From assembly GCF_024323335.1 (NCBI RefSeq), contig NC_066584.1, positions 233,149,494 through 233,213,493 on the forward strand: a stretch of DNA of 64,000 nucleotides, written 5' to 3'. The position numbers and the translations under genes are program-made. Source of the DNA: Lathyrus oleraceus (taxonomy: Eukaryota; Streptophyta; Magnoliopsida; Fabales; Fabaceae). A model generated the notes under the pieces. It saw only the letters and a list, made by a program, of their open reading frames with translations. It was not told the DNA's origin and did not search any database. This document shows, piece after piece, positions 1-62,159 of this stretch. Each line of letters starts with the position of its first letter. Position 1 is the first letter of the stretch.

Positions 1-2371
1 CATCTAACAGCCACGTGTGAACCCATATTCAAGTTGTTGAGAAAAGATCAAACGGTCAGGTGGAATAGTGATTTCCAAGCGGCATTTGAAAAGTTAAAAG
101 AGTATTTGTAGGAGCCTCCGATTCTGATGCCTCCTGTGGAGGGACGACCGTTAATACTGTACTTGACGGTCCTCGAGGGGTCTATGGGGTGCGTACTGGG
201 GCAGCATGACGAGTCTGGTCGAAAAGAGCATGCCATATACTACCTTTGCAAAAAGTTTACCGACTGTGAAACAAGATATTCACTGCTCGAGAAAACTTGC
301 TGTGCTTTGGTCTGGGCTGCTCGCCGACTAAGACAGTATATGCTGGTTCATACCACTTTGTTGATTTCCAAGATGGATCCAATCAAGTATATTTTTTAGA
401 AGCCAGCATTGACCGGACGGGTTGCGAGGTGGCAAATGATTTTGATAGAATATGATATACAATATACCTCTCAGAAAGAAATCAAGGGGAGTGTATTGTC
501 TGATTACCTCGCCCAACAACCCATTGAGGATTATCAACCGATGAAGTTTGAATTCCCATGATGAGGACATCATGTTTCTCAAATCGAAAGATTGTGAGGA
601 ACCAATCCCGGAGGAGGGGCCTGACCCTGAATCCGAATGGATTCTGATGTTTGATGGGGCCGTTAACGTGAATGGTAGCGGAGTTGGTGCTGTTTTGGTT
701 ACGCCGAAAGGATCCCACATTCCTTTTGCTGCCCGGCTAACATTTGAGTGCACCAACAACGTGGCTGAATACGAAGCTTGCATATTGGGAATTGAAGAGG
801 CGATTGATTTGAGGATCAAAAACCTTGTTATATATGGAGATTCAACTTTGGTTGTGAATCAGGTCAACGGAAAATGGTATACGCATCAGTCTCATTTAAT
901 TCCATATCGAGATTATACAAGGAGATTGTTGACGTTTTTCACCAGGGTGAAAATGCATCATGTGCCGAGAGAGGAGAATCCTTTGGCAGATGCTTTGGCT
1001 ACTCTGGCTGCCTTGATTAAGGTGCAACGGTGGAACCAGTTCCCCAGTGTTGAGGTGGGACGTCTGGATAGACCGACTTATGTGTTTGCTGTTGATACAG
1101 CGCCTGATGAAGAGAAGCCGTGGTATTACGATATCAAGCGCTATTTGGAGACCCAAGAGTATCCTGAGGGAGCATCCAAGAAGGACCGAAAGACTCTACG
1201 GAGGTTGGCCATGGTGTTCTATCTGAATAAGGATGGGGTTTTGTACAAGTGGAATTTTGATTGGGTTTTGCTCAGATGTGTTGATGATAAGGAAGCAAGC
1301 CAATTCATGAAAGAGGTTCACGAGGGATCGTTCGGTACCCATGCCAGTGGGAATGCAATGGTGAAGAAGCTGCTGCGGGAAGGTTATTATTGGATGACAA
1401 TGGAGGCCCAATGTTTCAATTTCGTGCGGAAGTGTCATAAATGCCAGATTTATGCTGACAAGGTGCACGTGCCTCCGAATCCGTTGAGTTTGATGTCATC
1501 TCCGTGGCCGTTTTCTATGTGGGGCATTGATATGATTGGGAAGATTGAGCCTACAGCTTCGAATGGGCACCGGTTCATATTAGTGGCTATTGATTACTTC
1601 ACCAAGTGGGTGGAAGCAGCCTCTTATGCGAACGTGACAAAGCAGGTTGTGGCCAGATTCCTGAAGAGAGACATCATTTGCAGATATGGGGATCCCGAGA
1701 GAATCATTACTGATAATGGTTCTAATTTGAACAATAAGATGATGGCAGAACTGTGCCGGGAATTCAAGATCGAGCATCACAATTCTTCTCCTTATCGTCC
1801 GAAGATGAACAGGGCGGTTGAGGTAGCCAACAAGAATAGAAAGAAGATTGTGCAGAAGATGGTCGTGACCTATAAAGATTGGCATGAGATGTTGCCGTTT
1901 GCATTGCATGGGTATCGAACTTCGGTGCGTACATCTACTGGGGCAACACCTTTCTCGCTCGTATATGGAATGGAAGCCGTGTTACCGGTTGAGGTCCAAA
2001 TTCCTTCTTTGAGAGTCCTGATGGACGTGAAGTTGCAAGAGGCTGAATGGGTAAGGACCCGGTACGAAGAGTTGAGCCTGATTGAGGAAAAGAGGCTGGC
2101 AGCCATCTGTCATGGGCAGTTGTACCAGCAGCGGATGAAGCGTGCTTTTGACCGAAAGGTACGACCTCGCGTGTATCACGTAGGTGATATGGTGCTGAAA
2201 AGGATCCTTCCTCCTCAAAACGATCGAAGGGGCAAGTGGACACCCAATTATGAAGGTCCATTCGTGGTCAAGAATGTTTTCTCTGGTGGAGCCTTGTTGC
2301 TAACGACCATGGATGGCGAGGATTTCCCATCCCCTGTGAATGCGGACGCAGTTAAAAAATACTTCGTATAA
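1..2371 (+). pseudogene. Element A: Ogre-type pol, 3' part (RT end, RNase H, second RNase H, integrase), broken
   Basis: This is the 3' part of a Ty3/gypsy (Ogre/Tat) polyprotein that would copy the element's RNA and integrate the cDNA; the 5' part lies outside the window. The first 540 bases encode the end of RT and the gypsy RNase H and match element B's pol, but contain in-frame TAG codons at 109-111 and 397-399 and a frame change near 555. From 548 a 607-codon frame is open to the TAA at 2369-2371. It holds the second, archaeal-type RNase H (FDGAVN with D at residue 36), the integrase CHKC zinc-finger end, and catalytic D328, D389 and E425 with 60 and 35 residues between them. Integrase residues look intact, but the nonsense codons make pol inactive. 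Family assignment is secure. Confidence 0.93.
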
Positions 2372-2648
2372 AGAGACCCGCTGGACGAAAAGAATAAAAT
2401 AGTCCAGGCAAAAATGGGCATCCCGGCGAACCGGAAAAAAATGATGAAAAGGTTTGGGCAAAAATTAGGGATAAAAAATGAAAAATGTACACCCGGCAAG
2501 TCGAAAACCTGAAAAGGCGGCTTGGGCAAAAAAGGGTATCCCGGTGGACTGAAAACCCGAAAGGGCGGTCCAGGTGAAAGAGGGATTGAAACGAACAACT
2601 GCGTCTGGCATGATCGTTTGTACCTTGGATATGACTGGATAATCCCTG
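2372..2648 (+). repeat. Element A: post-pol array of four hairpins, start of the 3' region
   Basis: Directly after the pol stop come four short inverted repeats, several preceded by a CCCG-like run and most followed by GGCAAAA or a close variant. The arms are CTGGAC/GTCCAG (2381-2386, 2402-2407), CGAACC/GGTTTG (2427-2432, 2451-2456), CAAGTCG/CGGCTTG (2497-2503, 2518-2524) and TGGACTG/CGGTCCA (2545-2551, 2566-2572). The last two enclose inner hairpins CCT-GAAA-AGG and CCC-GAAA-GGG with GNRA loops. The element is cut by B at 2654 and resumes at 33241. Confidence 0.8.
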
Positions 2649-9896: not shown

Positions 9897-10887
9897 CGAA
9901 CCCAGAATCCCTGGTTGTATTGCCTACTTTTCACCCTTGTTGTGATATATGTATTATTCTTTATCTGACATATTTTTGTACAATTTGGGATCCATGTATT
10001 GATTGTAATGTGTGAATTGCTTGATATACATTTGCTGTTTGCTTTGGTGATCTGTGAGATGAGTTCTATACCCGAACTCGAGTGCTCTCTAGGATAGGAG
10101 AATGGCATAGTCTTGTCGACTGGTGTGGAGTAGTCCTTAGCCAGTTGACTTGCGAGCCCATTCACTTGGTGGAGGTCATGTTGAACTAATAATGTCACAC
10201 AAGTTATTTGTGGTTAGGCATTATTCTTTCAATCATGTTCCGCAGAAGCCAAGGACCTTAGTTTACCAAACCCATCTTGGCCTATTTTTAGGACCGTAGT
10301 GCGGAGGTCGTTCAGATGTCAGTTCTGATACGATTGTTACGCGATACTACACTCATAAGAGTTTCTCTTGAGAATATTCTTGGAATACGAGTATTCGTTC
10401 CTCCGATAATATTCGAAAGATGGAACGATGATTATGGGAACCTCTGATAGAACATGTCTGGCAGGTTTAAACCCTAGTACACTCCCTTTGGGTGGTTCTT
10501 AACCGAGACTCCATGCTCGTGACTCTCAACAAACCCGTGATTCGTGGTTGAGTCGTTCAAACATTGTTAATATCAATGGATCCCGGATCAGGTGTAAAAC
10601 CTAAAATCCATCAAAGCGGCTGGTTGATATTAAGAATGTTTGAACCGGTTCATGTACCGTTAATATCAATGGAACTTGGGTGTCGATAAGGTGAAAACCT
10701 AAATCCACCAAAATGGATGATTGATATTAGGGATACATAGAGCTTTCCCACGACCTTTGTTTGGTGTGCTTTGTTTGATCCTTGAGTGTGTTTGTTGCAT
10801 TCATGCATTCACGCATTCATCCGCATTCATGTCATCAAAAAGAAAATTTTCAAGGAACTTAAAGGGTTATTTGCAAAATTTTCAGAC
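9897..10887 (+). other. Leader of element B with two tandem stem-loop units
   Basis: This non-coding leader lies between the PBS and ORF1. Two related inverted repeats are present: TAATATCAA/TTGATATTA (10568-10576, 10624-10632) and TAATATCAAT/ATTGATATTA (10671-10680, 10720-10729), each enclosing a GTGTAAAACC or GGTGAAAACC phrase. Element D has one such unit at the same place. The stretch is repeated at 31623-32615. Confidence 0.7.
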
Positions 10888-12336
10888 ATGGAAAGACCGA
10901 AAAGGCATACAAAGAAGTACAGCTTTAAGCAGCCCGATGTAAAAGAGTTAAGGAATCTGACATCATATGTATTAGATCCCTTGGGTTTCAAGGCTCGCTA
11001 TGGGAAGCTTCTGCCGTTGCTGACTACTCAAGTGGATGAGGGATTGATGAGCACTCTTGCTCAGTTCTATGATCCGCTCTATCATTGCTTCTTATTTCCG
11101 GACTTCCAGTTGTTGCCGACTTTGGAAGAATACTCTCACCTTATTGGGATTCCTATTCTGGATCAAGTGCCGTTCAGTGGCTTAGAGAGTATTCTATCTG
11201 CTCGAGAGATTTCCAGTCTGTTGCATATAGATGAAGATCTGATTAGAGCTAATCTGACTACCAAAGGCGGAATTCAAGGTTTTCCTTCCGAGTTCCTTAT
11301 TGCTCAAGCCACTTTCTATGGGAAGGCCATGAGTGAGGATGCCTTTGAGGCTCTATTCGTATTGCTTATCTATGGATTGGTGCTGTTTCCCAACTTTGAC
11401 AAGTTCGTCGATATGAACGCCATTAGGATCTTTTCAGTTCTTAATCCAGTTCCGACCTTGTTGGGTGATGCGTATGTCTCCTTGCATCTGAGGAATATGA
11501 AGAATGGAGGAGTCATTGTCTGCTGTTTACCCCTGCTGTACAAGTGGTTTATTTCGCACTTGCCGCAGACAGTTGCTTTCAAGGAGAACAAGGGATGTCT
11601 ACGGTGGTCTCAGAGACTCATGTCTCTCACCAATGATGATATCACCTGGTATGATCGTGTGTATGACACCGTCCAGATCATTAATTCTTGTGGTGAATTC
11701 CCTAATGTGCCTCTTCTTGGTACATGTGGTGGGATTACCTACAACCCTACGCTTGCACGTCGTCAGCTTGGGTTCCCCCTAAAGGATAAACCCCATAACA
11801 TTCTGTTAGAAGGTGTATTCTTTCAGGAGGGTAAAGATCCCCAAGGCCTGAAAGCCAGATTTGTCCGCGCTTGGCGCAATATTCGCATAAAGAGTAGGAA
11901 TGAATTGGGTCCAAAGAACTGCATTGCTTTGGAGCCATACACCTCTTGGGTCAGACAGAGGGCTGCTACCTACCTGATGCCGTATGATCATCCAAGACCT
12001 ACACTGTTGGATGTGGCTGGGCCTTCAACCCTCCCTACCCAACGTGTAGAGGAGTTGAGAGAAGAAGACCTTTCGCGTGCCTGGATCCGCGAGAGAGAGG
12101 AATTGCTGCAGCAGCTCAAGGAGAAAGATGATATGATTGAATTTCTCGAGCACCGAGTGATCGATGATCAGAACGACGCTTGGACTTCTCTGCTTCCTCA
12201 ATCATCCAAATTCTGGAAAAGGAAGTATGATCAACTTGCAAAGGAGAAAGCTGATATGGAGGCCGCCTATGAGAGAGAGATCAAGAAGTTGTACACTTCT
12301 CGTCTTCCAGCATCCCGCGCTAATAGGGATCCATAG
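10786..12336 (+). CDS. Element B ORF1 protein (Ogre-specific, function unknown)
   Basis: This 516-codon frame ends at a TAG in 12334-12336. The first Met is at 10786, but the conserved start is more likely the internal Met at residue 35 (10888, MERPKRHTKKYSF), because that is where similarity to element D's ORF1 becomes strong. The protein is an extra ORF found upstream of gag in Ogre elements. The central 330 residues resemble the plant-mobile-domain-like/DUF7745 family; this family name is from memory. Residues about 430-505 are charged and likely form a coiled coil. No catalytic motif is visible. The neighbouring gag starts about 300 bases downstream. The frame has no lesion. The role is unknown. 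Confidence 0.88.
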   Translation: MCLLHSCIHAFIRIHVIKKKIFKELKGLFAKFSDMERPKRHTKKYSFKQPDVKELRNLTSYVLDPLGFKARYGKLLPLLTTQVDEGLMSTLAQFYDPLYHCFLFPDFQLLPTLEEYSHLIGIPILDQVPFSGLESILSAREISSLLHIDEDLIRANLTTKGGIQGFPSEFLIAQATFYGKAMSEDAFEALFVLLIYGLVLFPNFDKFVDMNAIRIFSVLNPVPTLLGDAYVSLHLRNMKNGGVIVCCLPLLYKWFISHLPQTVAFKENKGCLRWSQRLMSLTNDDITWYDRVYDTVQIINSCGEFPNVPLLGTCGGITYNPTLARRQLGFPLKDKPHNILLEGVFFQEGKDPQGLKARFVRAWRNIRIKSRNELGPKNCIALEPYTSWVRQRAATYLMPYDHPRPTLLDVAGPSTLPTQRVEELREEDLSRAWIREREELLQQLKEKDDMIEFLEHRVIDDQNDAWTSLLPQSSKFWKRKYDQLAKEKADMEAAYEREIKKLYTSRLPASRANRDP

Positions 12337-12632: not shown

Positions 12633-13583
12633 ATGGAGCAATTGGAACAAGAGAACCAGAGTTTGAGAGATGAAGTCGCCAGACTTGGCGCTCTGATGGA
12701 GCAACTTCTTGCTGCCCAGAATCAGCCTGCTCCTCAACAGCCAGCAACTCCCGTTCAGCGGACGGTTATCTCTGAAATAGCTACTTCATCGGTGCCTGTT
12801 AGTGCCCAGCAGCCAAATGCCATGCCTCCCGGTTTTCCTTGGGGGATGCCTCCTGGCTTTATGCCTGATCTGCCAGCTCCAACATTTGCTCAAATGCCGG
12901 CATCTAGCCCGGTCCCTATTCCCGTTCCTCCTGTCGTGCATACCATGCCGAGGGTAGACGACACCATTTATCACTCTGAAGCTTCTGAAGGCTCAGATGT
13001 ACACGAGAAAATGGATGCAATGAACGACCAATTCCTTGAGCTGAGGAAGGAATTGAGAACTCTCAGTGGCAAAGATCTCTTCGGCAAGTCAGCAGCCGAA
13101 CTTTGTCTAGTTCCCGGTGTGAAAATACCTGTTAAATTCAAAGTCCCAGACTTTGAAAAGTATAAAGGGAACACTTGTCCTTTGGCACATCTGGTCATGT
13201 ATGCCAGAAAGATGTCCACGCAGACAGACAACGATCAACTCTTGATCCACTATTTCCAAGACAGTTTGTCTGGTGCTGCTCTCCGTTGGTACATGAGCCT
13301 AGACAGTGCCAACATCCGCTCTTTCAATGATCTTGGCGAAGCTTTCGTCAAGCAATATAAATACAATGTTGACATGGCGCCTGACAGAGATCAACTCAGG
13401 TCTATGTCACAAAAGGACAAAGAGACGTTCAAGGAGTACGCCCAGAGATGGCGTGAGCTGGCAGCTCAAATCACTCCACCATTAGAAGAGAAAGAGATGA
13501 CCAAGATCTTTTTGAAGACTCTTGGGTCATTTTTTATGAGAGAATGGTGGCCAGCGCTCCCTCTGATTTCACCGAGATGGTGA
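12633..13583 (+). pseudogene. gag: Element B gag, N-terminal frame, ends in a frameshift
   Basis: Gag would form the virus-like particle around the element's RNA. The frame opens with a short coiled coil (MEQLEQENQSLRDEV), followed by a Pro/Gln-rich stretch and then the retrotransposon-gag capsid region from about residue 165 (KVPDFEKYKGN, ...GAALRWYMSL, ...QYKYNVDMAPDR). Near 13530 one base appears to be missing compared with the expected frame: the frame runs on to a TAG at 13581-13583, while the conserved continuation is open in the frame starting at 13544. This probably prevents a full Gag-Pro. Capsid identity is clear; an assembly error is an alternative explanation for the frameshift. 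Confidence 0.88.
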
Positions 13584-16286: not shown

Positions 16287-19200
16287 GGCAGAAAAGATGA
16301 CGTTGAAGAGATTCCTGATGAGATCACCCGTCTCCTTGAGCACGAAGAGAAGATCATTCAGCCGCATCTCGAAGACTTGGAAACAGTCAACTTGGGATCT
16401 GAAGATTGTGAGCGCCTGGTGAAGATTGGGGCACTTCTTGAAGGGTCTGTTAAGGAAGATTTGATCAGCTTGCTACGAGAATATTCAGATATCTTTGCTT
16501 GGTCCTATGAAGACATGCCGGGTTTAGATACAGATATTGTGCAACATTTCCTGCCTTTGAAGCCTGAGTGCGTGCCTGTGAAGCAGAAGCTCAGAAGAAC
16601 TCATCCAGATATGGCAGTGAAGATCAAAGAGGAAGTTCAGAAGCAAATTGATGCGGGGTTTCTGGTGACTTCGACATATCCTCTATGGGTGGCCAATATT
16701 GTGCCTGTTCCTAAGAAGGACGGAAAAGTCCGTATGTGCGTTGATTACAGAGATTTGAATAAAGCTAGCCCAAAAGATGATTTTCCTCTACCACACATTG
16801 ACATGTTGGTAGACAATACAGCTAAATTCAAAGTCTTTTCCTTTATGGACGGATTTTCCGGATATAATCAAATCAAGATGGCACCAGAGGATATGGAGAA
16901 GACAACATTCATCACACCTTGGGGAACATTCTGTTATCGAGTGATGCCCTTCGGTTTGAAGAACGCCGGAGCCACGTATCAACGAGCTATGACTACCTTG
17001 TTTCATGATATGATGCACAAGGAGATAGAAGTCTATGTTGATGATATGATTGCTAAGTCCCGAACGGAAGTTGAGCATATTGAGCATTTGTTGAAGCTTT
17101 TTCAGCGTTTGAGGAAGTTCAAACTTCGTCTGAATCCGAACAAATGTACTTTTGGAGTCCGTTCCGGAAAGTTGTTGGGTTTTGTGGTAAGTGAAAGAGG
17201 TATTGAGGTTGATCCTGCAAAGGTCAAAGCAATACAAGAGATGCCCGCACCCAAAACTGAGAAGCAAGTCCGAGGTTTTCTTGGCCGCTTGAACTACATT
17301 TCCAGATTTATATCCCACATGACTGCCACATGTGCGCCGATATTCAAGCTCCTCCGGAAAGATCAGTCTCATGATTGGACCGAGGATTGCCAGAAAGCTT
17401 TCGACAGTATCAAAGATTATCTGTCCGAACCTCCGATTTTGTCTCCGCCTGTGGAAGGAAGACCTCTGATTATGTACTTGACAGTTCTTGAAGACTCGAT
17501 GGGTTGTGTACTCGGTCAACAAGATGAATCAGGGAAGAAGGAGTTTGCTATCTACTACCTCAGTAAGAAGTTTACTGATTGTGAGTCTCGGTACTCTATG
17601 CTTGAGAAGACGTGCTGTGCTTTAGCTTGGGCAGCTAAGCGTTTGCGCCAGTACATGATAAATCATACAACTTGGTTGATATCCAGAATGGATCCAATTA
17701 AGTATATCTTCGAGAAGCCTGCTTTAACTGGGAGGATTGCCCGTTGGCAGATGTTGTTGTCTGAGTATGATATTGAGTATCGAGCTCAGAAAGCTATCAA
17801 AGGTAGTATCTTGGCTGACCACTTAGCGCACCAGCCAATTGAAGATCATCAGTCTGTTCAGTATGACTTCCCCGATGAGGAAATTCTGTATTTGAAGATG
17901 AAAGATTGCGATGAGCCTACACTTGATGAAGGTCCAGAACCTGGTTCCAGATGGACGATGGTGTTTGATGGCGCTGTTAATCAATATGGAAATGGAATTG
18001 GGGCAGTAATTGTTAATCCCCAGGGATCGCACATTCCATTTACAGCAAGGCTAACTTTCAAATGCACGAATAATATGGCGGAGTATGAAGCCTGTATTAT
18101 GGGACTTGAAGAATGCATTGATTTGAGAATTAAATATCTTGATGTCTATGGTGATTCAGCTTTGGTTGTCAATCAGATCAAAGGTGAATGGGAGACGAAT
18201 CAACCAAGTCTCATCCCATACAGAGATTATGCAAGGAGAATTTCAACTTTCTTTACAGAAGTTGAATTTTATTATATTCCTCGAGAGGATAATCGGATGG
18301 CAGATGCCCTTGCAACGCTTGCTTCCATGATAGTTGTCAGATGGTGGAATGATGTTCCCAACATTACTGTGATGCGCTTGGACAGACCCGCTCACATATT
18401 TGCAATTGAAGAAGTGAAAGATGACAAGCCTTGGTATTTTGATATCAAGAATTTCCTCCAGAACCAGGTCTACCCGCCTGGGGCATCTGTGAAAGATAGG
18501 AAAACTTTGAGAAGGTTGTCAGGCAGTTTCTACCTCAGTGGTGAAGTGCTGTATAAGAGAAATTTTGATATGGTTTTGCTCAGATGCGTGGATAGACACG
18601 AAGCAAACCTATTGATGACTGAGGTCCATGAAGGTTCATTTGGTACTCATTCCAATGGACATGCCATGGCTAAGAAGATGTTGAGAGCAGGCTACTATTG
18701 GCTGACAATGGAGTCTGACTGTTGCAAGTATGTGAAGAAATGTCACAAGTGTCAAATTTATGCGGATAAGATTCATATTCCTCCGACACTCCTGAATGTG
18801 ATTTCATCACCATGGCCTTTCTCTATGTGGGGAATCGACATGATCGGTATGATTGAGCCGAAAGCGTCCAACGGACATCGGTTTATTCTCGTAGCAATTG
18901 ACTACTTCACCAAATGGGTTGAAGCCGCTTCGTACGCGAATGTAACCAGACAGGTGGTTGTGAAGTTTATCAAGAAACAGCTGATTTGCCGTTATGGTGT
19001 GCCAGAGAGGATCATTACTGATAATGGATCCAATCTGAATAACAAGATGATGGATGAGTTGTGCGCTGAATTCAAGATTGCACACCATAATTCCTCTCCT
19101 TACAGACCTAAGATGAATGGGGCTGTTGAAGCTGCTAACAAGAATATCAAGAGAATTATCCAGAAGATGACTGTCACCTACAAAGATTGGCATGAGATGC

Positions 19201-19679
19201 TGCCATTCGCTTTGCATGGATATCGTACGTCTGTACGCACTTCAACAGGGGCAACCCCTTTCTCTCTTGTTTATGGCATGGAAGCCGTTCTCCCAGTAGA
19301 GGTGGAGATCCCATCAATGCGAGTCTTGATGGAAGCCAAGTTGACTGATGCTGAATGGATTCAGAGTCGTTATGACCAGTTGAATTTGATCGAAGAGAAG
19401 CGATTAACTGCCATGTGCCATGGTCAGTTGTATCAGCAGAGAATGAAGAAAGCATTCGACAAGAAGGTCAAGCCTCGCGTGTTTCGAGAAGGTGACCTTG
19501 TGCTCAAGAAAGTTTTGTCTTTCGCGCCCGATTCCAGGGGCAAGTGGACTCCAAACTACGAGGGTCCATATGTTGTTAAGAGAGCCTTTTCAGGCGGAGC
19601 TTTGATGCTTACAACAATGGATGGGGAGGATTTCACTCGTCCTGTGAATTCAGATGCAGTTAAGAGATACTTTGCCTAA
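16287..19679 (+). CDS. pol: Element B pol: reverse transcriptase, RNase H, archaeal-type RNase H, integrase
   Basis: The frame is open from 16287 to the TAA at 19677-19679. Counting residues from 16377, RT has its catalytic Y220-V-D-D223, followed by the gypsy RNase H (PPVEGRPLIMYL..., about 355-450) and a second, archaeal-type RNase H starting FDGAVN with D531 and ending near ADALATLASM. The integrase zinc finger contains C789-H-K-C792, and the DDE core has D821, D882 and E918 with spacing of 60 and 35. The dual RNase H is typical of the Tat/Ogre lineage. Between the intron acceptor (16218) and 16287 the expected frame is broken by one or two small deletions near 16268 and 16292. No stop interrupts the enzyme domains, so this is the best preserved pol in the window. 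Confidence 0.95.
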   Translation, partial: GRKDDVEEIPDEITRLLEHEEKIIQPHLEDLETVNLGSEDCERLVKIGALLEGSVKEDLISLLREYSDIFAWSYEDMPGLDTDIVQHFLPLKPECVPVKQKLRRTHPDMAVKIKEEVQKQIDAGFLVTSTYPLWVANIVPVPKKDGKVRMCVDYRDLNKASPKDDFPLPHIDMLVDNTAKFKVFSFMDGFSGYNQIKMAPEDMEKTTFITPWGTFCYRVMPFGLKNAGATYQRAMTTLFHDMMHKEIEVYVDDMIAKSRTEVEHIEHLLKLFQRLRKFKLRLNPNKCTFGVRSGKLLGFVVSERGIEVDPAKVKAIQEMPAPKTEKQVRGFLGRLNYISRFISHMTATCAPIFKLLRKDQSHDWTEDCQKAFDSIKDYLSEPPILSPPVEGRPLIMYLTVLEDSMGCVLGQQDESGKKEFAIYYLSKKFTDCESRYSMLEKTCCALAWAAKRLRQYMINHTTWLISRMDPIKYIFEKPALTGRIARWQMLLSEYDIEYRAQKAIKGSILADHLAHQPIEDHQSVQYDFPDEEILYLKMKDCDEPTLDEGPEPGSRWTMVFDGAVNQYGNGIGAVIVNPQGSHIPFTARLTFKCTNNMAEYEACIMGLEECIDLRIKYLDVYGDSALVVNQIKGEWETNQPSLIPYRDYARRISTFFTEVEFYYIPREDNRMADALATLASMIVVRWWNDVPNITVMRLDRPAHIFAIEEVKDDKPWYFDIKNFLQNQVYPPGASVKDRKTLRRLSGSFYLSGEVLYKRNFDMVLLRCVDRHEANLLMTEVHEGSFGTHSNGHAMAKKMLRAGYYWLTMESDCCKYVKKCHKCQIYADKIHIPPTLLNVISSPWPFSMWGIDMIGMIEPKASNGHRFILVAIDYFTKWVEAASYANVTRQVVVKFIKKQLICRYGVPERIITDNGSNLNNKMMDELCAEFKIAHHNSSPYRPKMNGAVEAANKNIKRIIQKMTVTYKDWHEMLPFALHGYRTSVRTSTGATPFSLVYGMEAVLPVEVEIPSMRVLMEAKLTDAEWIQSRYDQLNLIEEKRLTAMCHGQLYQQRMKKAFDKKVKPRVFREGDLVLKKVLSFAPDSRGKWTPNYEGPYVVKRAFSGGALMLTTMDGEDFTRPVNSDAVKRYFA

Positions 19680-19735
19680 AGAAAAAAAAGTATATGCAAA
19701 TAAAAAAACAAATGAAAAAAAAACAGAATAGCTCG

Positions 19736-19885
19736 CTAAGTTGAAAACCCGAAAGGGCGGCTTAGGCAAAATTGAGCGTCTCGGTGGAGAACCCGCAAGG
19801 GTAATTCAGGCAAAAATTAGAGACTTGAAAAAAGAGATATATTTGCATCCCGCTAGATTGAGTACCTCACCCTGGGGCAATCTAG
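19736..19885 (+). repeat. Element B: post-pol array of three hairpins
   Basis: The arms are CTAAGTTG/CGGCTTAG (19736-19743, 19758-19765) around CCC-GAAA-GGG; TGGA/TTCA (19785-19788, 19805-19808) around ACCC-GCAA-GGGT; and the perfect 8-bp CTAGATTG/CAATCTAG (19853-19860, 19878-19885). Each is followed by GGCAAAA. The arrangement matches those in elements A and C. Confidence 0.8.
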
Positions 19886-22042
19886 GCAAAAATTAGGGAT
19901 TTGGCAAGTAACTGCATCCTGACAAGACATTCTGTTCATCAGTCGTCATTTCGTCAGAAGATTCTCGATTCGTCGTCAACGAAGCTTCGGATACATCGAG
20001 ATTCAAATTGGTAGAGAAAGGATCATTATGTTCAATGTAGCCCTCTTCCAATATATATCACTGATTTCAAATTTGTACAGATCTATGGAGTCTTGCCATT
20101 TGCAGACTACCATTCTATCAAATCAATTTGAGCTTTTTATCCAATTATTTGCACTCTTATTTGTTTCAATTCAACAAATGTTTTGCATGTTTTAAATTGA
20201 TAAAATGTCATTGTTTTAAACAAATCAAATTTTTCAAAATTTTTGTTTTAAACAAAGTGAACATTCACAAGATTGAAAGGATACTCAAGAATATCTCAGT
20301 GCTCTCCCGAGGGTGGCATGATTCCAACAGGTAAGACATTTGTTCATATTCCTGGTTTGGTGGTATCTTCTTTCTCAGATCTTTGTTGAGGTTGTTCCTC
20401 AGACAAGTTGTTGTTGGGGTTGTTCCCCAGTACAGTCGCAAGTGATTTGTTGTTGAAGACTTCGTTTCTCCAGCAGCAGTTTTTCCCAGCATGGGTGTTT
20501 TCTTGAGAAGTTTCGGCGGTTGATGGTTTGTCATCTTGGTGCCCTGTCACTTTCTCTAGTGGGTCGTATGCCCCAGACTTTATTTGTCTCCTCAGCACAG
20601 TCGTGAGTATAACTGATTGATTGATGCTCCCCTCGGAGTCGCGAATAGAGCTGATATTAACATCCCCACCAGGTTTGCAAGTGGAGTTGTTACCGCTTTT
20701 CCCCATGCAGTGTGCCAGCAGGATTTGTCAGTTTCCTCAGCACGATCGTTTTCTTTTGAAGATTCGGTAAGTCAGTGGTCTGAAACCCGGTACTTTACCT
20801 TTTCCCCGGCGAAGTCGTCTGCGGAATTGTTGCTATCTCCATCAGAGTTTATTTTCTTCAGCAGAGCAGGATTTATTTTCCTACTCCGTGGTTGATTGGG
20901 TTGGTATCCCAGTATTTGCAATCATCTTTCCCTCAGCGTAGTCTGCAGGATGTTTGTTGTGGCGGTTTTTGCCTGTTGAATACTCTTTCAATCCCCGATA
21001 TGGTCGGATGATGGCTCTAGCCTCCAGTGAACGGATTTGATTTCCTGAATGTTTGTGATCCCCAGTAGAGTGGCTTGTATTGCAGAATCTACCTGTTGTG
21101 ATCAGTTTGCTATGTGTTTTCTCCCCAAGTGGAGTGGTTCGTCGCAGAATCTACTTGTTTGATCTGTCCTCCCTCAGTGGTTTGTTCCCAAGAGAGTAGC
21201 CGACAGTTTTCCCCAGTAGAATTGCTTATGCAGTCAGATTCTATTTGGATGATATCATTCTCCCTCAGTGGATCCTCCCCCAGTGGAGTTATGTGGATTT
21301 GCTTCTACAGCAATTCGTGCTTGCGCGCTCCTTTCGTTTCTCAGTTAACACTGGGATTCCCTGCAGATACTTTGGGATTTCTCTTGTTCCCCTACAGATT
21401 TGTCTTGGTGGCTGTTTTGCCCGTTATGACTTTCTGTACCCTGTTTGGGATGTTTCCTGATATTTCTGATTTCTCTGCTTCTTCAGCAATGCTCGCAGAT
21501 CTTTGCTTTACAGCATGTAGATCTCCGCAGATTGGCTCTCCAGCTGGTTTTTCCCCTGGAAGTATAATACCGGACGTTTGGTTTTTGAACCTGTTTGTGT
21601 TAGAATTGTCTGTTTTGTCAGCATTCATCAAACATCAATCACGCATATTCATGCATATTCATAAACATTCAGATATTCATGTTGCATTTCTCGCCATGTA
21701 TCTTTTGTTTGTCGTGTCTCCTGCTTTGGTGATATAGATCTCTTTACAGATCTCCCCAAGCAGATGTGGGTGTTAAAATCTCTCCATATAGAGTCAACCC
21801 CATAAGCAGAAAATGTCTGTCTTTCCTTCTGCAGTTCCCCACTGAAATATATCCTCGTGGATGACGGTTTCTTCCGTTTCCTCCCAACATATATATTGGG
21901 ATGGATTTTCCTATTTGAGTTATATCCTCATTAGGACGTGTCTTTATTCAGTCTGTCTTTTCGGATCATTCCCGAATTGGCTATTTGTCAGATATCTTGT
22001 ACTTCCCAGTGGGTTGTTCCCCAGCGGAATGTTTTTGGGCCT

Positions 22043-22400: not shown

Positions 22401-22865
22401 GGATAATTGCCGTATGCTAGCAATTTTATCCCCAGTGGGTCTTTTCACCGTATGCTCGTGATTTGTTCCCTGGATCATTGATTCTTTATCAATGCATCCC
22501 CAGCTAGTCTTCTGTCGATAATTGCCGGATGCTTGCAATTTATCCTCAGCAGATCACCTTTCATTTACCCTTTTGTTGGTAATGTCTGTTGCTCCTTTTG
22601 ATTGGTCATCATTATATACCTAATTTGGTATCCCGATGCCTTTCTGTTCGGTTGATTTATCCTTTGTTAACCCAGTAACCGGTTGTGGATAGTCTTCCAT
22701 GCGAGTATATTATTCACGGTCTGCCGGTAATGAATAGTATATCTCATGCACTCTTCAGTCGAAACCTTTTGTGTTTCCCCAGTCGAGTAAGATTCGTTAT
22801 TTCCCTTTTGTGGAGTCGAATATTTTCTTGTTGTCGGATAATTGCCGGATGCTTGCAATTTATCC
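22401..22865 (+). repeat. Three GGATAATTGC/GCAATTTATCC hairpin units in the 3' region of B
   Basis: The units are at 22401-22431, 22517-22545 and 22836-22865. The loops are CGTATGCTA or CGGATGCTT and the 3' arm has one or two extra T residues. Confidence 0.6.
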
Positions 22866-23588
22866 CTTTGAGTTGTCTTTCGTTTACCCGTATGATTGGT
22901 ATCGATTGTCTCTCTTTGTGGTTAGTCACCTATTATATACCCAGTAACCGGTATCTCTGGTGTCTTTTCCTTTCGAGTGTATTATTCACGGTCTGCCGGT
23001 AATGAATAATATATCTCATGCGCTCTTTAGTTGGAATCCTTTGTTGATTTTCCCTGACTGAGTAAGATTCGTATTCTTTGTAGAATCGAATAGCCATCCT
23101 TTAACCAGTTTGTGTTTTGGATGATGAGTGTTTTGGAAGTGAAAACCAATTCACGTTTTCGGTAGATCACCTATTATATACCCAGTAACCGGTATCTCTG
23201 GTGTTTCTTACCATGCGAGTTTATTATCTACGTTCTGACGGTAATAGATAATATATCTCATGCGAGTATCTTATCCACGGTCTGCCGGTAATGGATATTG
23301 TATCTCATGCACTCTTTGGGTTTGTGTCCCCAGTTTGAGTAAGATTCGTTTTCCCGTTGTGGATTCGAATGCCCATCCTGTAAGTCGATTTGCTTTCTCA
23401 AGCCCTCCTTTCGGATGATGAGTGTTTTGGAAGTGAAAACCAATTCACGTTTTCGGATTTTTATCCTATAAACAACCCAGTAACCGGTTCAGGATAATCT
23501 TCCATGCGAGTATATTATTCACGGTCTGCCGGTAATGAATAGTATGTCTCATCTGAGTATTCTATCCACGTTCTGACGGTAATGGATA
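22707..23588 (+). repeat. Six nested hairpins TATYYA-CGK-TCTG-MCG-GTAA-TRRATA in the 3' region of B
   Basis: The outer arms are at 22711-22716/22731-22736, 22983-22988/23003-23008, 23225-23230/23245-23250, 23272-23277/23292-23297, 23516-23521/23536-23541 and 23563-23568/23583-23588. The outer pairs are TATTCA/TGAATA, TATCTA/TAGATA or TATCCA/TGGATA; the inner pairs are CGG/CCG or CGT/ACG around the constant loop TCTG. All pairings are perfect. Confidence 0.85.
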
Positions 23589-24359
23589 TTATATCTCGTG
23601 CGCTCTTGGGTCGATCTTTTGATTGTTTTCCCCTCAGAGTAAGATTCATTTTCCTTGTGGAATTGAATGTCCATCCTTTAAACAAGTTTGCTTTTCTAGC
23701 TCTCTTCGGGATGATGAGTGTTTTGGAAGTGAAATCCAATTCACGCTTTGGTCGGTCACCTATTATATACCCAGTAACCGGTATCCTTGGTGTTCCCTCC
23801 TTTCTGCTCCCTATTATGACCTCGGTCCCCCTGTGGAGTCAGATGTTCCTGAGTTTGTTACCCGTATGCTTGGTAACATCTCATTTCTTTGTTGCTTCCC
23901 CAGTGGAACTTGCTGTTGCTTCTCCCCAGGAGTCAGCTTGTGTCTATTCAATGGATTTATTTTCCTTTGGAATCTTTTCCCAGTGTGAGTCCTTCACTCC
24001 CCAGTGAGTTCTCCTGTCTGTTATCTCCTAATCAGAGTCGTGTCTTGTTCATGTTATGTCAAGTTTTGTTTTTCCCCAGTTTGGAGTCGTGTATCGTTCA
24101 CACATTTCTTTGTCTTTTATTATCCCCATAGAATCTTGTTAGAGTCTCTGTTCCTGGTGAGTATATTACTCCGATGGATCGTCTTTTCTTCTGTGTGAAT
24201 CATATTCCCCACAGAATTTGTGTCTTTTGCATACATACATTCGCATCATGAGGTCTCTTAGGGACCAAAATTTGTCTCATTACTGTTATTTAAGCCCATT
24301 CTACCGCGTCGAGATGAAGATTTCTAAACTTCACTTCTCCGGCTAGAATGACCTTAAAT

Positions 24360-31598: not shown

Positions 31599-33219
31599 GA
31601 AAAGTGGCGACTCCGCTGGGGAACGAACCCAGAATCCCTGGTTGTATTGCCTACTTTTCACCCTTGTTGTGATATATGTTATTATTCTTTATCTGACATA
31701 TTTTTGTACAATTTGGGATCCATGTATTGATTGTAATGTGTGAATTGCTTGATATACATTTGCTGTGTGCTTTGGTGATCTGTGAGATGAGTTCTATACC
31801 CGAACTCGAGTGCTCTCTAGGATAGGAGAATGGCATAGTCTTGTCGACTGGTGTGGAGTAGTCCTTAGCCAGTTGACTTGCGAGCCCATTCACTTGGTGG
31901 AGGTCATGTTGAACTAATAATGTCACACAAGTTATTTGTGGTTAGGCATTATTCTTTCAATCATGTTCCGCAGAAGCCAAGGACCTTAGTTTACCAAACC
32001 CATCTTGGCCTATTTTTAGGACCGTAGTGCGGAGGTCGTTCAGATGTCAGTTCTGATACGATTGTTACGCGATACTACACTCATAAGAGTTTCTCTTGAG
32101 AATATTCTTGGAATACGAGTATTCGTTCCTCCGATAATATTCGAAAGATGGAACGATGATTATGGGAACCTCTGATAGAACATGTCTGGCAGGTTTAAAC
32201 CCTAGTACACTCCCTTTGGGTGGTTCTTAACCGAGACTCCATGCTCGTGACTCTCAACAAACCCGTGATTCGTGGTTGAGTCGTTCAAACATTGTTAATA
32301 TCAATGGATCCCGGATCAGGTGTAAAACCTAAAATCCATCAAAGCGGCTGGTTGATATTAAGAATGTTTGAACCGGTTCACGTACCGTTAATATCAATGG
32401 AACTTGGGTGTCGATAAGGTGAAAACCTAAATCCACCAAAATGGATGATTGATATTAGGGATACATAGAGCTTTCCCACGACCTTTGTTTGGTGTGCTTT
32501 GTTTGATCCTTGAGTGTGTTTGTTGCATTCATGCATTCACGCATTCATCCGCATTCATGTCATCAAAAAGAAAATTTTCAAGGAACTTAAAGGGTTATTT
32601 GCAAAATTTTCAGACATGGAAAGACCGAAAAGGCATACAAAGAAGTACAGCTTTAAGCAGCCCGATGTAAAAGAGTTAAGGAATCTGACATCATATGTAT
32701 TAGATCCCTTGGGTTTCAAGGCTCGCTATGGGAAGCTTCTGCCGCTGCTGACTACTCAAGTGGATGAGGGATTGATGAGCACTCTTGCTCAGTTCTATGA
32801 TCCGCTCTATCATTGCTTCTTATTTCCGGATTTCCAGTTGCTGCCGACTTTGGAAGAATACTCTCATCTTATTGGGATTCCTATTCTGGATCAAGTGCCG
32901 TTCAGTGGCTTAGAGAGTATTCTATCTGCTCGAGAGATTTCCAGTCTGTTGCATATAGATGAAGATCTGATTAGAGCTAATCTGACTACCAAAGGCGGAA
33001 TTCAAGGTTTTCCTTCCGAGTTCCTTATTGCTCAAGCCACTTTCTATGGGAAGGCCATGAGTGAGGATGCCTTTGAGGCTCTATTCGTATTGCTTATCTA
33101 TGGATTGGTGCTGTTTCCCAACTTTGACAAGTTCGTCGATATGAACGCCATTAGGATCTTTTCAGTTCTTAATCCAGTTCCGACCTTGTTGGGTGATGCG
33201 TATGTCTCCTTGCATCTGA
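31599..33219 (+). repeat. Extra copy of PBS, leader and 5' half of ORF1 downstream of B's 3' LTR
   Basis: This segment repeats 9873-11491 with about seven substitutions and two or three single-base indels by my count. It starts with the bases after the LTR, has the PBS at 31605-31622, and stops inside ORF1 at ...TGCATCTGA. It shares 5' LTR-adjacent sequence only, so it is a partial second element fused in tandem. Confidence 0.92.
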
Positions 33220-33235
33220 CGAATACACCGCTACA
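33220..33235 (+). repeat. Terminal 16 nt of an LTR that closes element B
   Basis: CGAATACACCGCTACA equals the last 16 bases of both B LTRs (9857-9872 and 31583-31598). It abuts the right ACAGG duplication, so it is the original right end of the insertion. Confidence 0.93.
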
Positions 33236-33240
33236 ACAGG
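33236..33240. repeat. Target-site duplication of element B, right copy (ACAGG)
   Basis: It is identical to 2649-2653 and lies directly after the LTR tail. Confidence 0.93.
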
Positions 33241-58736: not shown

Positions 58737-59287
58737 CGTACATCCATCTGCATTTCAACAAGGGAAACCCCTTTTTCTCTTGTGTATGGTATGGAAGCTG
58801 TGCTCCCATCCCATCATTGCGTGTTCTCATGGAAGCCAAGTTGACTGAGGCTGAATGGTGTCAGACCAAGTTTGATCAGTTGAATTTGATAGAAGAGAAT
58901 AGGTTAACTGCCATGTGACATGGTCAATTGTATCAGTAGATGATGAAGAAAGCTTTTGATAAGAAGGTCATACCTCGTGTATTCAGAGAAGGTGACCTTG
59001 TGCTCAAGAAGATCTTGTCATTCAAACCAGATTCTAGGGGAAAATGGACTCCTAACTATGAAGGTCCATATGTTGTCAAGAGAGCATTTTCAGGCGGTGC
59101 TTTGATTCTTACAACTATAGATGGTGAAGAGTTTACTCGTCCTGTGAATGCAGATGCAGTCAAGAAATTCTTCTCCAAAAAAAGAAAAGAGCAGCTCGCT
59201 AAGTTGAAAACCCGAAAGGGCGACTTAGGCAAAAATGAGCGTCTCGGTGGATTGAAAACCCGAAAGGGCGATCCAGGAAAAAGTTAG
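58737..59287 (+). pseudogene. Element C: Ogre pol 3' end (integrase C-terminal part)
   Basis: Pol resumes after E with the conserved TPFSLVYGMEAVLP region, then MKKAFDKKV and GKWTPNYEGPYVVKRAFSGGA. TGA at 58916-58918 and TAG near 58937 break the frame, and a short deletion near 58807 is likely. The normal stop is lost: the last frame (58940-59287) reads through into the post-pol hairpin repeats. Confidence 0.85.
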
Positions 59288-59348
59288 AGACATAAAATAG
59301 AAAAGAATTATCCCGATAAATTGAGTACCCCACCTTGGGGCAATTTAT
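59199..59348 (+). repeat. Element C: post-pol array of three hairpins
   Basis: The arms are CTAAGTTG/CGACTTAG (59199-59206, 59221-59228), TGGATTG/CGATCCA (59248-59254, 59269-59275) and the perfect ATAAATTG/CAATTTAT (59316-59323, 59341-59348). The first two enclose CCC-GAAA-GGG, the third CCCC-ACCTT-GGGG. Order and spacing are as in element B. Confidence 0.82.
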
Positions 59349-62159
59349 GAAAAAGTTATGGATTATGGCAAGTAACTGCATCCTGTTGATATTTAATGTT
59401 GAAGACATTTTTTAGCACAGCGGTCAACGGTGATTCATCATCCCCTAGTAGCGGCCAAGAGCACAATGGACATCAAGAGTTGGTGGAAGGATTAGTGGTC
59501 ATTTGTATTCAATGTAACCCTTTTCCATGTAAATTACCATTTTCAACTTTGTAAAGATCTATGGAGTCTTGTCATTTACAAACTACCATTCTATGAAATA
59601 AAGTTGAGCTTTTATCCAATTATTTCTACTCTTATTTATTTCAGTCAAATAGTTTTAAATTTTATTATGATCATTTTCGAAAATTAAATTTTTAATCAAA
59701 ACATGTTTTCTTAAACATATAAAAGTAGTAATTTAAAATAATCGATTTCATTTAAAAAGAATATCAATAGTGGTTCGAAAGCAGTAAGCCCTAAGTGCGG
59801 AGTAGTATTGATTCTCCCCAAGCAATAGGCACAATTTCTCTTTCATCCCCGATAACATTGTTCAACACTCGGTGTTTGTTGATTTCTCCAGACGATTGAT
59901 TGTTTGCTATTCCCCAATAAGGTAGCCAACCGAGTTGGTTGATTAATCCCCTGTGGAGTATTTGTTCCCTAGCTGAGTACAGACATTTCGTTACGACAAT
60001 TTGCATGATTTTGGAAGAACGTTGGTTTCCCTCATCAGTCTCCATTAGATTTACTCCCGGTCAGAGTTTCCTCCTGGTTTCTTAGCAACTATTTTTGTTT
60101 ATCCTCTGCATGGTTGTCTCCCATTTGATATGGTGTGGACCTAAAATTCCCCGCAGACTCGATGACGGTTTTCCTCAGCATATCTCCTCTTTCCTCGGCT
60201 AGGTTTGAGCCTTAGGGATGATGATCTCTCTTTTCTCCAGCAGTTGTTTCCCTCCTTTGTGTGTATTTCCTGAGAATTGTATCGATGATTCAAATTCTGT
60301 GACACCCTTGTATCCTTTGCAATCACTTTATCAGCATAATCATCATATACACATATACATATACATATACACTCATATAATTTCATGATTGCATTATAGC
60401 ACTTGTTGAGTCATTCTTGTGATTCTTATTCTCTATTATGGTGTTACTTTATCCCCATACGAGTTTGGTGTCTGTCTTCCCTCAAATATAGAGTGTCAGC
60501 CCCTTAAGCAGAAAGAATTTAACATTTCTCCTTTACCCATTGAGTTATTTCCTCATGGATGATTATTATTTCAGTTTCCTCCCTAGCTGATTATCTGGAT
60601 GGAATCACTCCCCTCGAGTTATATCCTCATTGGGTTGAGTCTTGATTGACCGTTTCTTTCTAGATCTTACCTAGATAGATATTTTGGGTCCCCTAAGAGT
60701 TTATTACCCAGTAACTAGTAATATTATTCTTAGTTTGCAGTTTGTTACTTCTTGCCCAATACCCGACAAAAGTACCCCCGTTTTCTCCCCACTGGAGTCC
60801 CCAGCGGATTCATTTTTATATTTCCCCAGGAAGTGTATCCTTGATATGTTCATCCTAACCGATGACGGATATTTTATTCCCCTATTTTGAGTTTATCCTT
60901 GATATGTTCATCCGAACCGATGACGGATACTCTCATCTTTGGTATTCTACCCAGTAAAAAGGTAGTTGTAATCCCTATTTTGTTCTCTAGGGAGATAATC
61001 CTTGATATGCTCATCCTAACCGATGACGGGTTTTCTTCTCTTTGCGGTCTTCTCCCTAGTAACCGGTAGTTATAAATCCCGCTTTTCTCCCCTTTGCAGA
61101 GTCTATCCTTGATATGTTCATCATAACTGGTGACAAATATTCTCTCCTTCGATATTCTATCCAGTAACTGATAGATGTAATTCCTATTTCTCTCCTCTCA
61201 GAGTCTATCCTAGATATGTTCATCTTAACTAGTGACAGGTTTTCTCTTTGATGGTATTCTATCCATCATTCGATAGATGTAATTCCTACTTTTTGTTCAG
61301 TTGGTTTATCCTTGATATGTTCATCCTAACTGATGATGGATATCCTCTTTGACATCCCCAGGAAAGTCTATCCTTGATATGTTCATCTTAATCGATGACG
61401 GATTTTCTTTCCTTTGAGTCTATCCTTGATATGTTCACCTTAACCGGTGATAGATATTCTCATCTTTGGTCTTCTGCCCAGTAACTGGTAGTTGTAAATC
61501 CTATTTCCGCAAATTTTCCCCCAACAAGCCTATTCTTACCCAGTAACCGGTAATGAATACTCCGTCCTGATGGTTCCCAGAGAGTCATCCTTGATATGTT
61601 CTTCCTAACCGATGATGGATGTCCTCTCTATCATATCTTTATTATCTCCTTACCCAGTAACCGGTAGTGGATAATAAATTTCTGCTCCTTCTGTGTTGAA
61701 GTCTATTTCTTCCCCAGTTGAGTTGAGTGTGCATTTCCTTAGTGAAATCCCTTTTCCTGCATGATTCAAGTACTTCAATTTTATCCCAATCTACTCGTTT
61801 CCCCTACATATGTTTTGTTTCCCCGACTGAGTCTTTCCATCTTTATGGAATTCCTCTAGTCACCCAGCAGTTTTTAAGTCATAGTCTGGCCTATGCATAA
61901 CCCTTTTATTCCCCCAGAGTCTTTGTTTCCCCGATGAGTTTTCCTTACAGAATACATTGTGCTCCTGCAGACTTTCGGTCGCTCTAATTTCTTTTCCCTT
62001 TGTGGCAACATTTCCCCACAGAGAATTTGCTTTTACATTATATGCATCATGAGGTCTCTTAGGGACCAAAATTTGTTTCTATATGTTGTTATTTAAGCCC
62101 ATTCTACTGAGCCGATATGAAAATTTTAACCTTCACCTCCTCAGTTAGAATGTCCTTAA
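59349..62159 (+). other. Element C non-coding 3' region
   Basis: The part at 59510-59625 matches B and contains GAAATAAAG (59607-59615), a possible polyadenylation signal. From about 59800 the sequence has the same style as B's 3' region, with TTCCCCAG-type motifs and CAGTAACC hairpins. A short (AC/AT) microsatellite lies at 60343-60372. I see no gene. Confidence 0.82.
60830..61625 (+). repeat. Tandem TCCTTGATATGTTCATC units with CCAGTAACYGGTAG hairpins in element C
   Basis: About ten copies of a core of about 38 bp (TATCCTTGATATGTTC, ATCCTAACCGATGACGGAT) recur at 40-105-bp intervals. Between them are hairpins CTACC/GGTAG (60947-60951, 60961-60965), CTATC/GATAG (61157-61161, 61170-61174), TCTATC/GATAGA (61258-61263, 61272-61277) and TTACC/GGTAA (61536-61540, 61549-61553). 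Confidence 0.8.

Follow-up and report, generated by a model that had tools for sequence, protein, structure and literature searches.

Why should a plant retrotransposon carry, just behind the end of pol, a row of hairpins whose arms differ in sequence from one hairpin to the next and still pair? The question is raised by a stretch of 64,000 nucleotides of the pea (Lathyrus oleraceus) genome on contig NC_066584.1 (hereafter the window), which contains the pol ends of three copies, A, B and C, of the long terminal repeat (LTR) retrotransposon Ogre. An initial annotation, made from the letters alone, had proposed that the hairpins near the stop codon form an RNA structure under selection. Our analysis upholds that proposal, on the strength of covariation in two collections of units, an asymmetry in wobble pairs, and conservation of the array that is at least as high as that of pol while the flanks have decayed. 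The hairpin array is confirmed as real, and its selection as sense-strand RNA is supported.

Ten hairpin units follow three Ogre pol ends

The window contains ten units, four in A and three each in B and C, in arrays that extend, with the outermost helix included, over 2375-2586, 19731-19900 and 59194-59363, respectively (Table 1). The arms listed in the initial annotation are present where it placed them, and its hairpins were recovered in minimum-energy folds of all three regions; the two nested stems that it described exist, but it had overlooked a third, outermost helix. From the outside inwards, a typical unit comprises an outermost helix of 4-5 bp (GCTC/GAGC, GTCTC/GAGAC, TCCC/GGGA or CCC/GGG), a purine strand, a middle helix of 4-8 bp, an A-rich bulge, and an inner helix of 3-5 bp closed by a GNRA loop. 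Between the outermost and middle helices, GG or G faces the purine strand; where the initial annotation had units mostly followed by GGCAAAA, this strand reads GGCAAAA in seven of the ten. The bulge is 4 nt long (AAAA or AGTA), except in B unit 2, which has a GA/AA loop. The inner loop is GNRA in six window units and CCY in the third units of B and C, while the first two units of A have an open A-rich loop in place of the inner hairpin. All ten units fold alone as nested hairpins, with near-identical folds in context, although the outermost helix of C unit 3 is absent from the context fold of C and present when the unit is folded alone. With the arms set by eye, the units contain 133 Watson-Crick pairs, 9 GU pairs, 2 AC pairs and 1 other. 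Units adjoin one another in pairs (separations of 0, -1, 0 and 0 nt), and 17-22 nt lie between a pair and the next unit.

The hairpins had been placed directly after the pol stop. This is accurate for A and loosely so for B, where the distance is 51 nt, but not for C, which has no in-frame stop ahead of the array: its frame passes unit 1 and enters unit 2.

A covariance model was trained on five units (A3, A4, B1, C1 and C2), the other five being held out. Four of these five were detected at E < 1e-4 (Table 1), and the next match anywhere in the 64 kb was at E = 0.39. With structure, the held-out units scored 29.9 (B3), 27.0 (A1), 26.8 (B2), 23.1 (C3) and 12.6 bits (A2), against 10.9, 7.6, 19.6, 3.5 and 8.6 bits with a sequence-only model, some of whose matches were partial; the gain from structure was 4.0-19.6 bits. 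Folding energy taken alone provides only modest evidence, with z values (200 shuffles each) of -1.26 for B (24 shuffles as good), -2.09 for A (6 as good) and -3.82 for C (none as good). An arm-swap test of the ten units in the window was set aside, because their arms had been picked by pairing and the test was biased.

The array is general at the Ogre pol ends sampled

We scanned the assembly from which the window comes (3,795,255,167 bases in 1,550 contigs) with an arm-blind pattern, G N8 AAAACCCGAAAGGG N8 GCAA, in which the letters of the arms are free. There were 26,230 + 26,074 = 52,304 matches, whereas the reversed pattern, used as a control, gave none in the whole assembly. An array-first sample of 100 listed places, from the first 10.2 Mb of one chromosome, yielded 87 loci, some of them overlapping, among which 76 contexts and 31 of the 35-mers were distinct. 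The last 150 amino acids of B pol were matched upstream, on the same strand and within 700 nt, in 64 of 64 locus-strands (58-100% identity, some matches being partial), and the first arm-blind unit lay 14-361 nt from the end of the pol match. In all 81 locus entries tested outside the window (77 distinct stretches), a stop codon precedes the first arm-blind unit, which is not necessarily the first unit of its array. Among 16 close neighbours hand-picked from the arm-blind listing, 12 had a start-to-start spacing of 48 nt. One locus (L132) carries a two-unit array twice (128-224 and 393-489), 265 nt apart in one copy.

For a pol-first sample, the genome was searched for the pol motif KWTPNYEGP, which gave 44,829 matches; from these, 90 listed ends within the same first 10.2 Mb of one chromosome were taken regardless of arrays. 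An exact arm-blind unit was present within 600 nt downstream in 56, and in 33 of the other 34 (621-base stretches) the covariance model gave matches at E = 0.01 or better. Thus, of the 90 pol ends among the matches listed, 89 are followed on the same strand by units no more than about 620 nt away, and at the remaining one a unit lies 2.3 kb downstream. The array is general in the sample examined, and arm pairing, rather than being a peculiarity of the three window copies, holds across the units sampled.

The Rfam search that had been suggested was run and matched no family: there were no matches at the gathering score in the window and, within 19600-20100, just two sub-threshold matches, both on the minus strand and outside the array. 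In viral contigs an 18-base pattern had no match and pol had no relative, while a 16-base pattern matched 11 places; prokaryote contigs gave no match. We recognized no account of the motif, or of Ogre RNA structure, in a literature search that was limited, so that an earlier mention is possible.

Paired changes and a wobble bias point to sense-strand RNA

Among the 31 distinct arm-blind units, 206 of 217 cells of the middle helix were paired, compared with a mean of 184.2 and a maximum of 197 in 5,000 arm swaps. For the outermost helix (at least 4 bp), 60 of 68 flank pairs were complementary, compared with a mean of 35.5 and a maximum of 44 in 300 swaps.

The pol-first units were aligned with a sequence-only model, and the helices were laid on afterwards; this gave 68 units (63 distinct) from the 34 more diverged loci. 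In the middle and inner helices, 95.8% of cells were paired, compared with 86.2% after shuffling and 24-54% when the helices were slid. There were 97 double-change cells (36 when shuffled), and the covariation score was 0.463 (0.300 when shuffled). In each of these three comparisons, none of 500 shuffles reached the observed value. The outermost helix was paired in 47 of 54 cases, against 26.8 (maximum of 36 in 1,000). In the 63 distinct units, the bulge was AAAA in 54 and the purine strand GGCAAAA in 47. The loop was GAAA in 39, AAAA in 10 and GCAA in 8, so that GNRA loops are common but not universal.

Selection on sense RNA would tolerate U.G pairs but not A.C pairs, and an excess of U.G is what we observed. 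At one middle-helix pair, the genome-wide counts were 1,903 U.G and 85 C.A (about 22 to 1). In the pol-first units, GU exceeded AC by 70 to 4 in the middle helices and by 19 to 3 in the inner ones. When the letters of the inner helix were freed there were 13,582 matches, and of the 16 that varied among 100 listed, 10 were U.G, 2 were C.A, 1 was compensated and 3 had other mismatches.

Some results qualify this evidence. Two of the five pol-first measures were not above their shuffles: pairs with a double change numbered 6 versus 5.3 (207 of 500 shuffles reaching the observed value) and further pair types 15 versus 17 (500 of 500), and the latter measure also failed in another covariation run (434 of 500). 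Because the copies share ancestry, the counts do not represent independent events, and the two main arm types largely go back to a single old divergence of units 1 and 2. Finally, the pol frame enters the array in C and, by a regular-expression count, in 18 of 136 database proteins, which are described below.

The array is conserved about as well as pol

Between B and C, identity was 91.5% in units 1-2 and 83% in unit 3, compared with 80% in pol, 29% in the spacer, 59% in the gap and 67% beyond the tail; the middle helices of the two third units differ by two compensated pairs. In an alignment of 80 rows (77 fetched plus the 3 from the window), mean identity was 0.74-0.77 in the units, 0.77 in pol, 0.26 in the spacer (a value resting on 883 of 3,160 row pairs that were measurable) and 0.51 after the array. 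The array, non-coding in most copies, is thus about as well preserved as the coding sequence of pol. Another stretch, which lies about 350-490 nt past the B pol stop (20031-20168 versus 59508-59643), is 85% identical between B and C, the stretch preceding it being 67% identical; judging from this similarity, it may be another constrained element.

Array units are also present, in translation, in 136 database proteins, whose named sources are Medicago truncatula and Lathyrus oleraceus; one further protein search added a single protein. Because the retrieval of these proteins relied on array words, their sharing of the motif is no test. In the best protein frame, 295 of 312 cells were able to pair (shuffled mean 0.84; none of 1,000 shuffles reached this). 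In frame 1 no shuffle out of 1,000 reached the observed value with either the strict or the loose motif, while frames 2 and 3 were weak (3 and 79 of 1,000 shuffles, respectively, with the strict motif; 79 and 0 with the loose one). Reading frames differ between arrays and also within a single array (P0078), the latter speaking against a coding role. P0007, P0011, P0012, P0023 and others are annotated as "hypothetical proteins" of Medicago or pea; since they hold translations of the array, they are probably not genes.

The Ogre copies in the window

Pol of B has the domains expected of Ogre, a Tat-type Ty3/gypsy element: reverse transcriptase (RT; 111-270), RT_RNaseH (362-464), RVT_3 (530-648) and integrase (738-911), that is, with a second RNase H between the first and integrase. 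This domain order is shared by Ogre and Retand in the account of PMC6317226. Gag-pro and RT-integrase form two open reading frames (ORFs) with a short interval (the listed ORFs end at 15943 and start at 16377), although gag is encoded separately, by an ORF at 12633-13583. The gene order in B is a DUF7745 ORF, gag, protease, RT, RNase H, second RNase H and integrase. The DUF7745 ORF (10786-12336) begins in the LTR repeat and extends into the internal region, and its first part recurs in the 3' LTR (32514-33290). The two B LTRs, of about 8.9 kb each, are 99.4% alike and exceed the "up to about 5 kb" given in the portion of PMC6317226 used here. Diverged tandem repeats occupy 22670-23794, between the B array and the 3' LTR.

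B is nested within A and is flanked by a target duplication of 5 bp (ACAGG) at 2649-2653 and 33236-33240. Its insertion point is about 280 nt past the A pol stop, and the 3' remainder of A is expected from 33241. C has decayed upstream of its pol end. A stretch partly like the 19-nt tail of B and C also follows A unit 4.

Table 1. Pol ends, hairpin units and tails in the window. Helices are given from the outside inwards.
Feature	Position	Strand	Composition	Remarks
A pol end	548..2371	+		array begins 3 nt past the A stop
A unit 1	2375..2419	+	outermost CCC/GGG; middle CTGGAC/GTCCAG; open A-rich loop	held out, E 2.7e-6
A unit 2	2420..2472	+	ATCCC/GGGAT; CGAACC/GGTTTG; open A-rich loop	adjoins unit 1; fold; model weak, E 0.23
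A unit 3	2490..2538	+	ACCC/GGGT; CAAGTCG/CGGCTTG; AAAA bulge; CCT-GAAA-AGG	fold; training set
A unit 4	2538..2586	+	ATCCC/GGGAT; TGGACTG/CGGTCCA; AAAA bulge; CCC-GAAA-GGG	one base in common with unit 3; fold; training set
B pol	16377..19679	+	RT, RNase H, second RNase H, integrase	array 3' of the stop
B unit 1	19731..19777	+	GCTC/GAGC; CTAAGTTG/CGGCTTAG; AAAA bulge; CCC-GAAA-GGG	fold; training set
B unit 2	19778..19824	+	GTCTC/GAGAC; TGGA/TTCA; ACCC-GCAA-GGGT	adjoins unit 1; held out, E 3.2e-6
B unit 3	19847..19900	+	ATCCC/GGGAT; CTAGATTG/CAATCTAG; AGTA bulge; CCTCA/TGGGG; CCC loop	held out, E 2.7e-7
B tail	19903..19921	+	19 nt	right after unit 3; identical letters in C at 59367-59385
C pol end	58940..59287	+		open frame entering units 1-2
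C unit 1	59194..59240	+		fold; training set
C unit 2	59241..59291	+		adjoins unit 1; C frame ends inside (59285-59287); fold; training set
C unit 3	59310..59363	+	two compensated pair changes versus B unit 3 (C-G to A-U, G-C to A-U)	held out, E 6e-5

What the array may do

Of the functions considered, we rank as most likely, while holding it tentatively at somewhat under an even chance, that the array is a cis-acting element governing the fate of Ogre RNA, that is, its stability and/or its export. The repeated hairpins would offer single-stranded purines (the AAAA bulge and the GGCAAAA strand) and mostly GNRA loops, which an RNA-binding protein of the host or of the element might recognize; the protein-bound array would then stabilize and/or export an Ogre RNA that partly keeps its intron and has a very long 3' untranslated region (3'UTR). 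Ogre transcripts are partly spliced, the region between gag-pro and RT-integrase being a partly spliced intron in the pea and Medicago elements, according to PMC6317226. In B the LTR begins 4,689 nt after the pol stop and 8,425 nt after the gag-pro stop. From the partial splicing and the 4.7 kb behind pol it follows that Ogre RNA may face both retention and decay. As a first guess, suggested by the position of the array next to the pol stop, it might shield the RNA from nonsense-mediated decay in the manner of the Rous sarcoma virus (RSV) stability element. Besides the frames that enter the array, two points count against a role in RNA fate: there is no array at the B gag-pro stop (nor any further unit in the window), where a simple decay shield would want one, and binding by Gag would fit repeated, purine-exposing hairpins equally well.

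That second point leads to the runner-up, which we regard as unlikely but by no means negligible: a packaging or dimerization signal, in which Ogre Gag would bind the repeated hairpins and thereby select genomic RNA for particles. The repetition of the units, their exposed purines and mostly GNRA loops, and their presence at 89 of the 90 sampled pol ends would all suit such a signal, and in Mason-Pfizer monkey virus (MPMV) and mouse mammary tumour virus packaging is reported to depend on single strands or loops rich in purines. However, packaging requires no fixed place beside the stop and, because the array is 3' of pol, spliced RNA would carry it too.

Control of translation termination or readthrough at the pol stop is improbable: a stop does lie nearby (at the distances given above for A, B and the sample), but the spacer varies freely in length and sequence (identity 0.26), and units shift frame within one array (P0078). 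Very improbable is an origin without selection, in which hairpin-templated correction, raised in the initial annotation, or else replication slippage matches the arms: such a process could create paired changes, but correction predicts neither the bias of U.G over C.A nor the asymmetric AAAA bulge kept in most units, and the array is conserved above its flanks. A coding C-terminal tail of pol, the nucleotide pattern following from protein repeats, fares just as poorly, for although the frame runs on from pol into two units in C, and into the array in the 18 database proteins, a stop lies ahead of the first arm-blind unit in every one of the 81 entries, frames differ between and within arrays, and covariation is at the level of base pairs.

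Returning to RNA fate, in a form broad enough to include packaging, there is a reasonable but less than even prospect that the array is an undescribed RNA family of tandem three-helix hairpins, near-universal at the Ogre pol ends sampled in this genome (where over 52,000 units match the arm-blind pattern exactly), serving as a dedicated protein-binding platform for survival, export or packaging of intron-keeping Ogre RNA with its long 3'UTR.

Comparison with known RNA elements

In position and possible task, but not in loop type, the array resembles the RSV stability element, the MPMV constitutive transport element (CTE) and the Element for Nuclear Expression (ENE) of the plant LTR retrotransposon Evade. 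The RSV element counters decay from a position after a stop and before a long 3'UTR (PMC5580461), and the Ogre array likewise lies directly 3' of a stop, C excepted, with a multi-kilobase 3'UTR beyond. The RSV element, however, spans 400 nt (minimally 155) after gag and binds PTBP1, and the portion of PMC5580461 used here describes it without the tandem hairpin units that the Ogre array has. In MPMV, the export receptor TAP/NXF1 binds a stem-loop in the CTE and unspliced RNA leaves the nucleus (PMC3856414). The CTE is a cis-acting structured RNA, as the Ogre array probably is; the window has no match to any Rfam family. The Evade ENE, a 3'UTR structure, raises RNA stability and mobility; its internal loops are rich in U and engage poly(A) in a triple helix (PMC12501189). 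In contrast, the loops of the Ogre array are A/G-rich and repeated, and in B it lies 4.7 kb ahead of the LTR. Identity with an ENE was rejected on loop content, the bulges and purine strands lacking U-rich loop strands flanked by G-C pairs. The Sireviruses (Ty1/copia) also have conserved motifs in non-coding parts; these are, in the portion of PMC2829016 drawn upon, copies of the polypurine tract (PPT), LTR boxes and an inverted repeat where the PPT meets the LTR, not covarying hairpins behind pol.

Implications for Ogre and the legumes

Cis-acting structured RNAs in the 3' regions of retroelements are a known kind, of which the Ogre array is a new example. Its natural variants, numbering in the tens of thousands, supply a clean signal of RNA selection, and the array also suggests that translation of its RNA accounts for some of the small "proteins" predicted in plants. 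A 2025 review, in the part used here, describes the export of LTR-retrotransposon RNA in plants as not studied directly (PMC12786077). A covarying element of about 170-210 nt at nearly all sampled Ogre pol ends makes that export directly testable. Ogre elements make up a large share of big legume genomes. If the array is a protein-binding platform, plants would have in it an equivalent of the transport, stability or packaging elements of retroviruses, and it would be part of the reason why Ogre fills these genomes.
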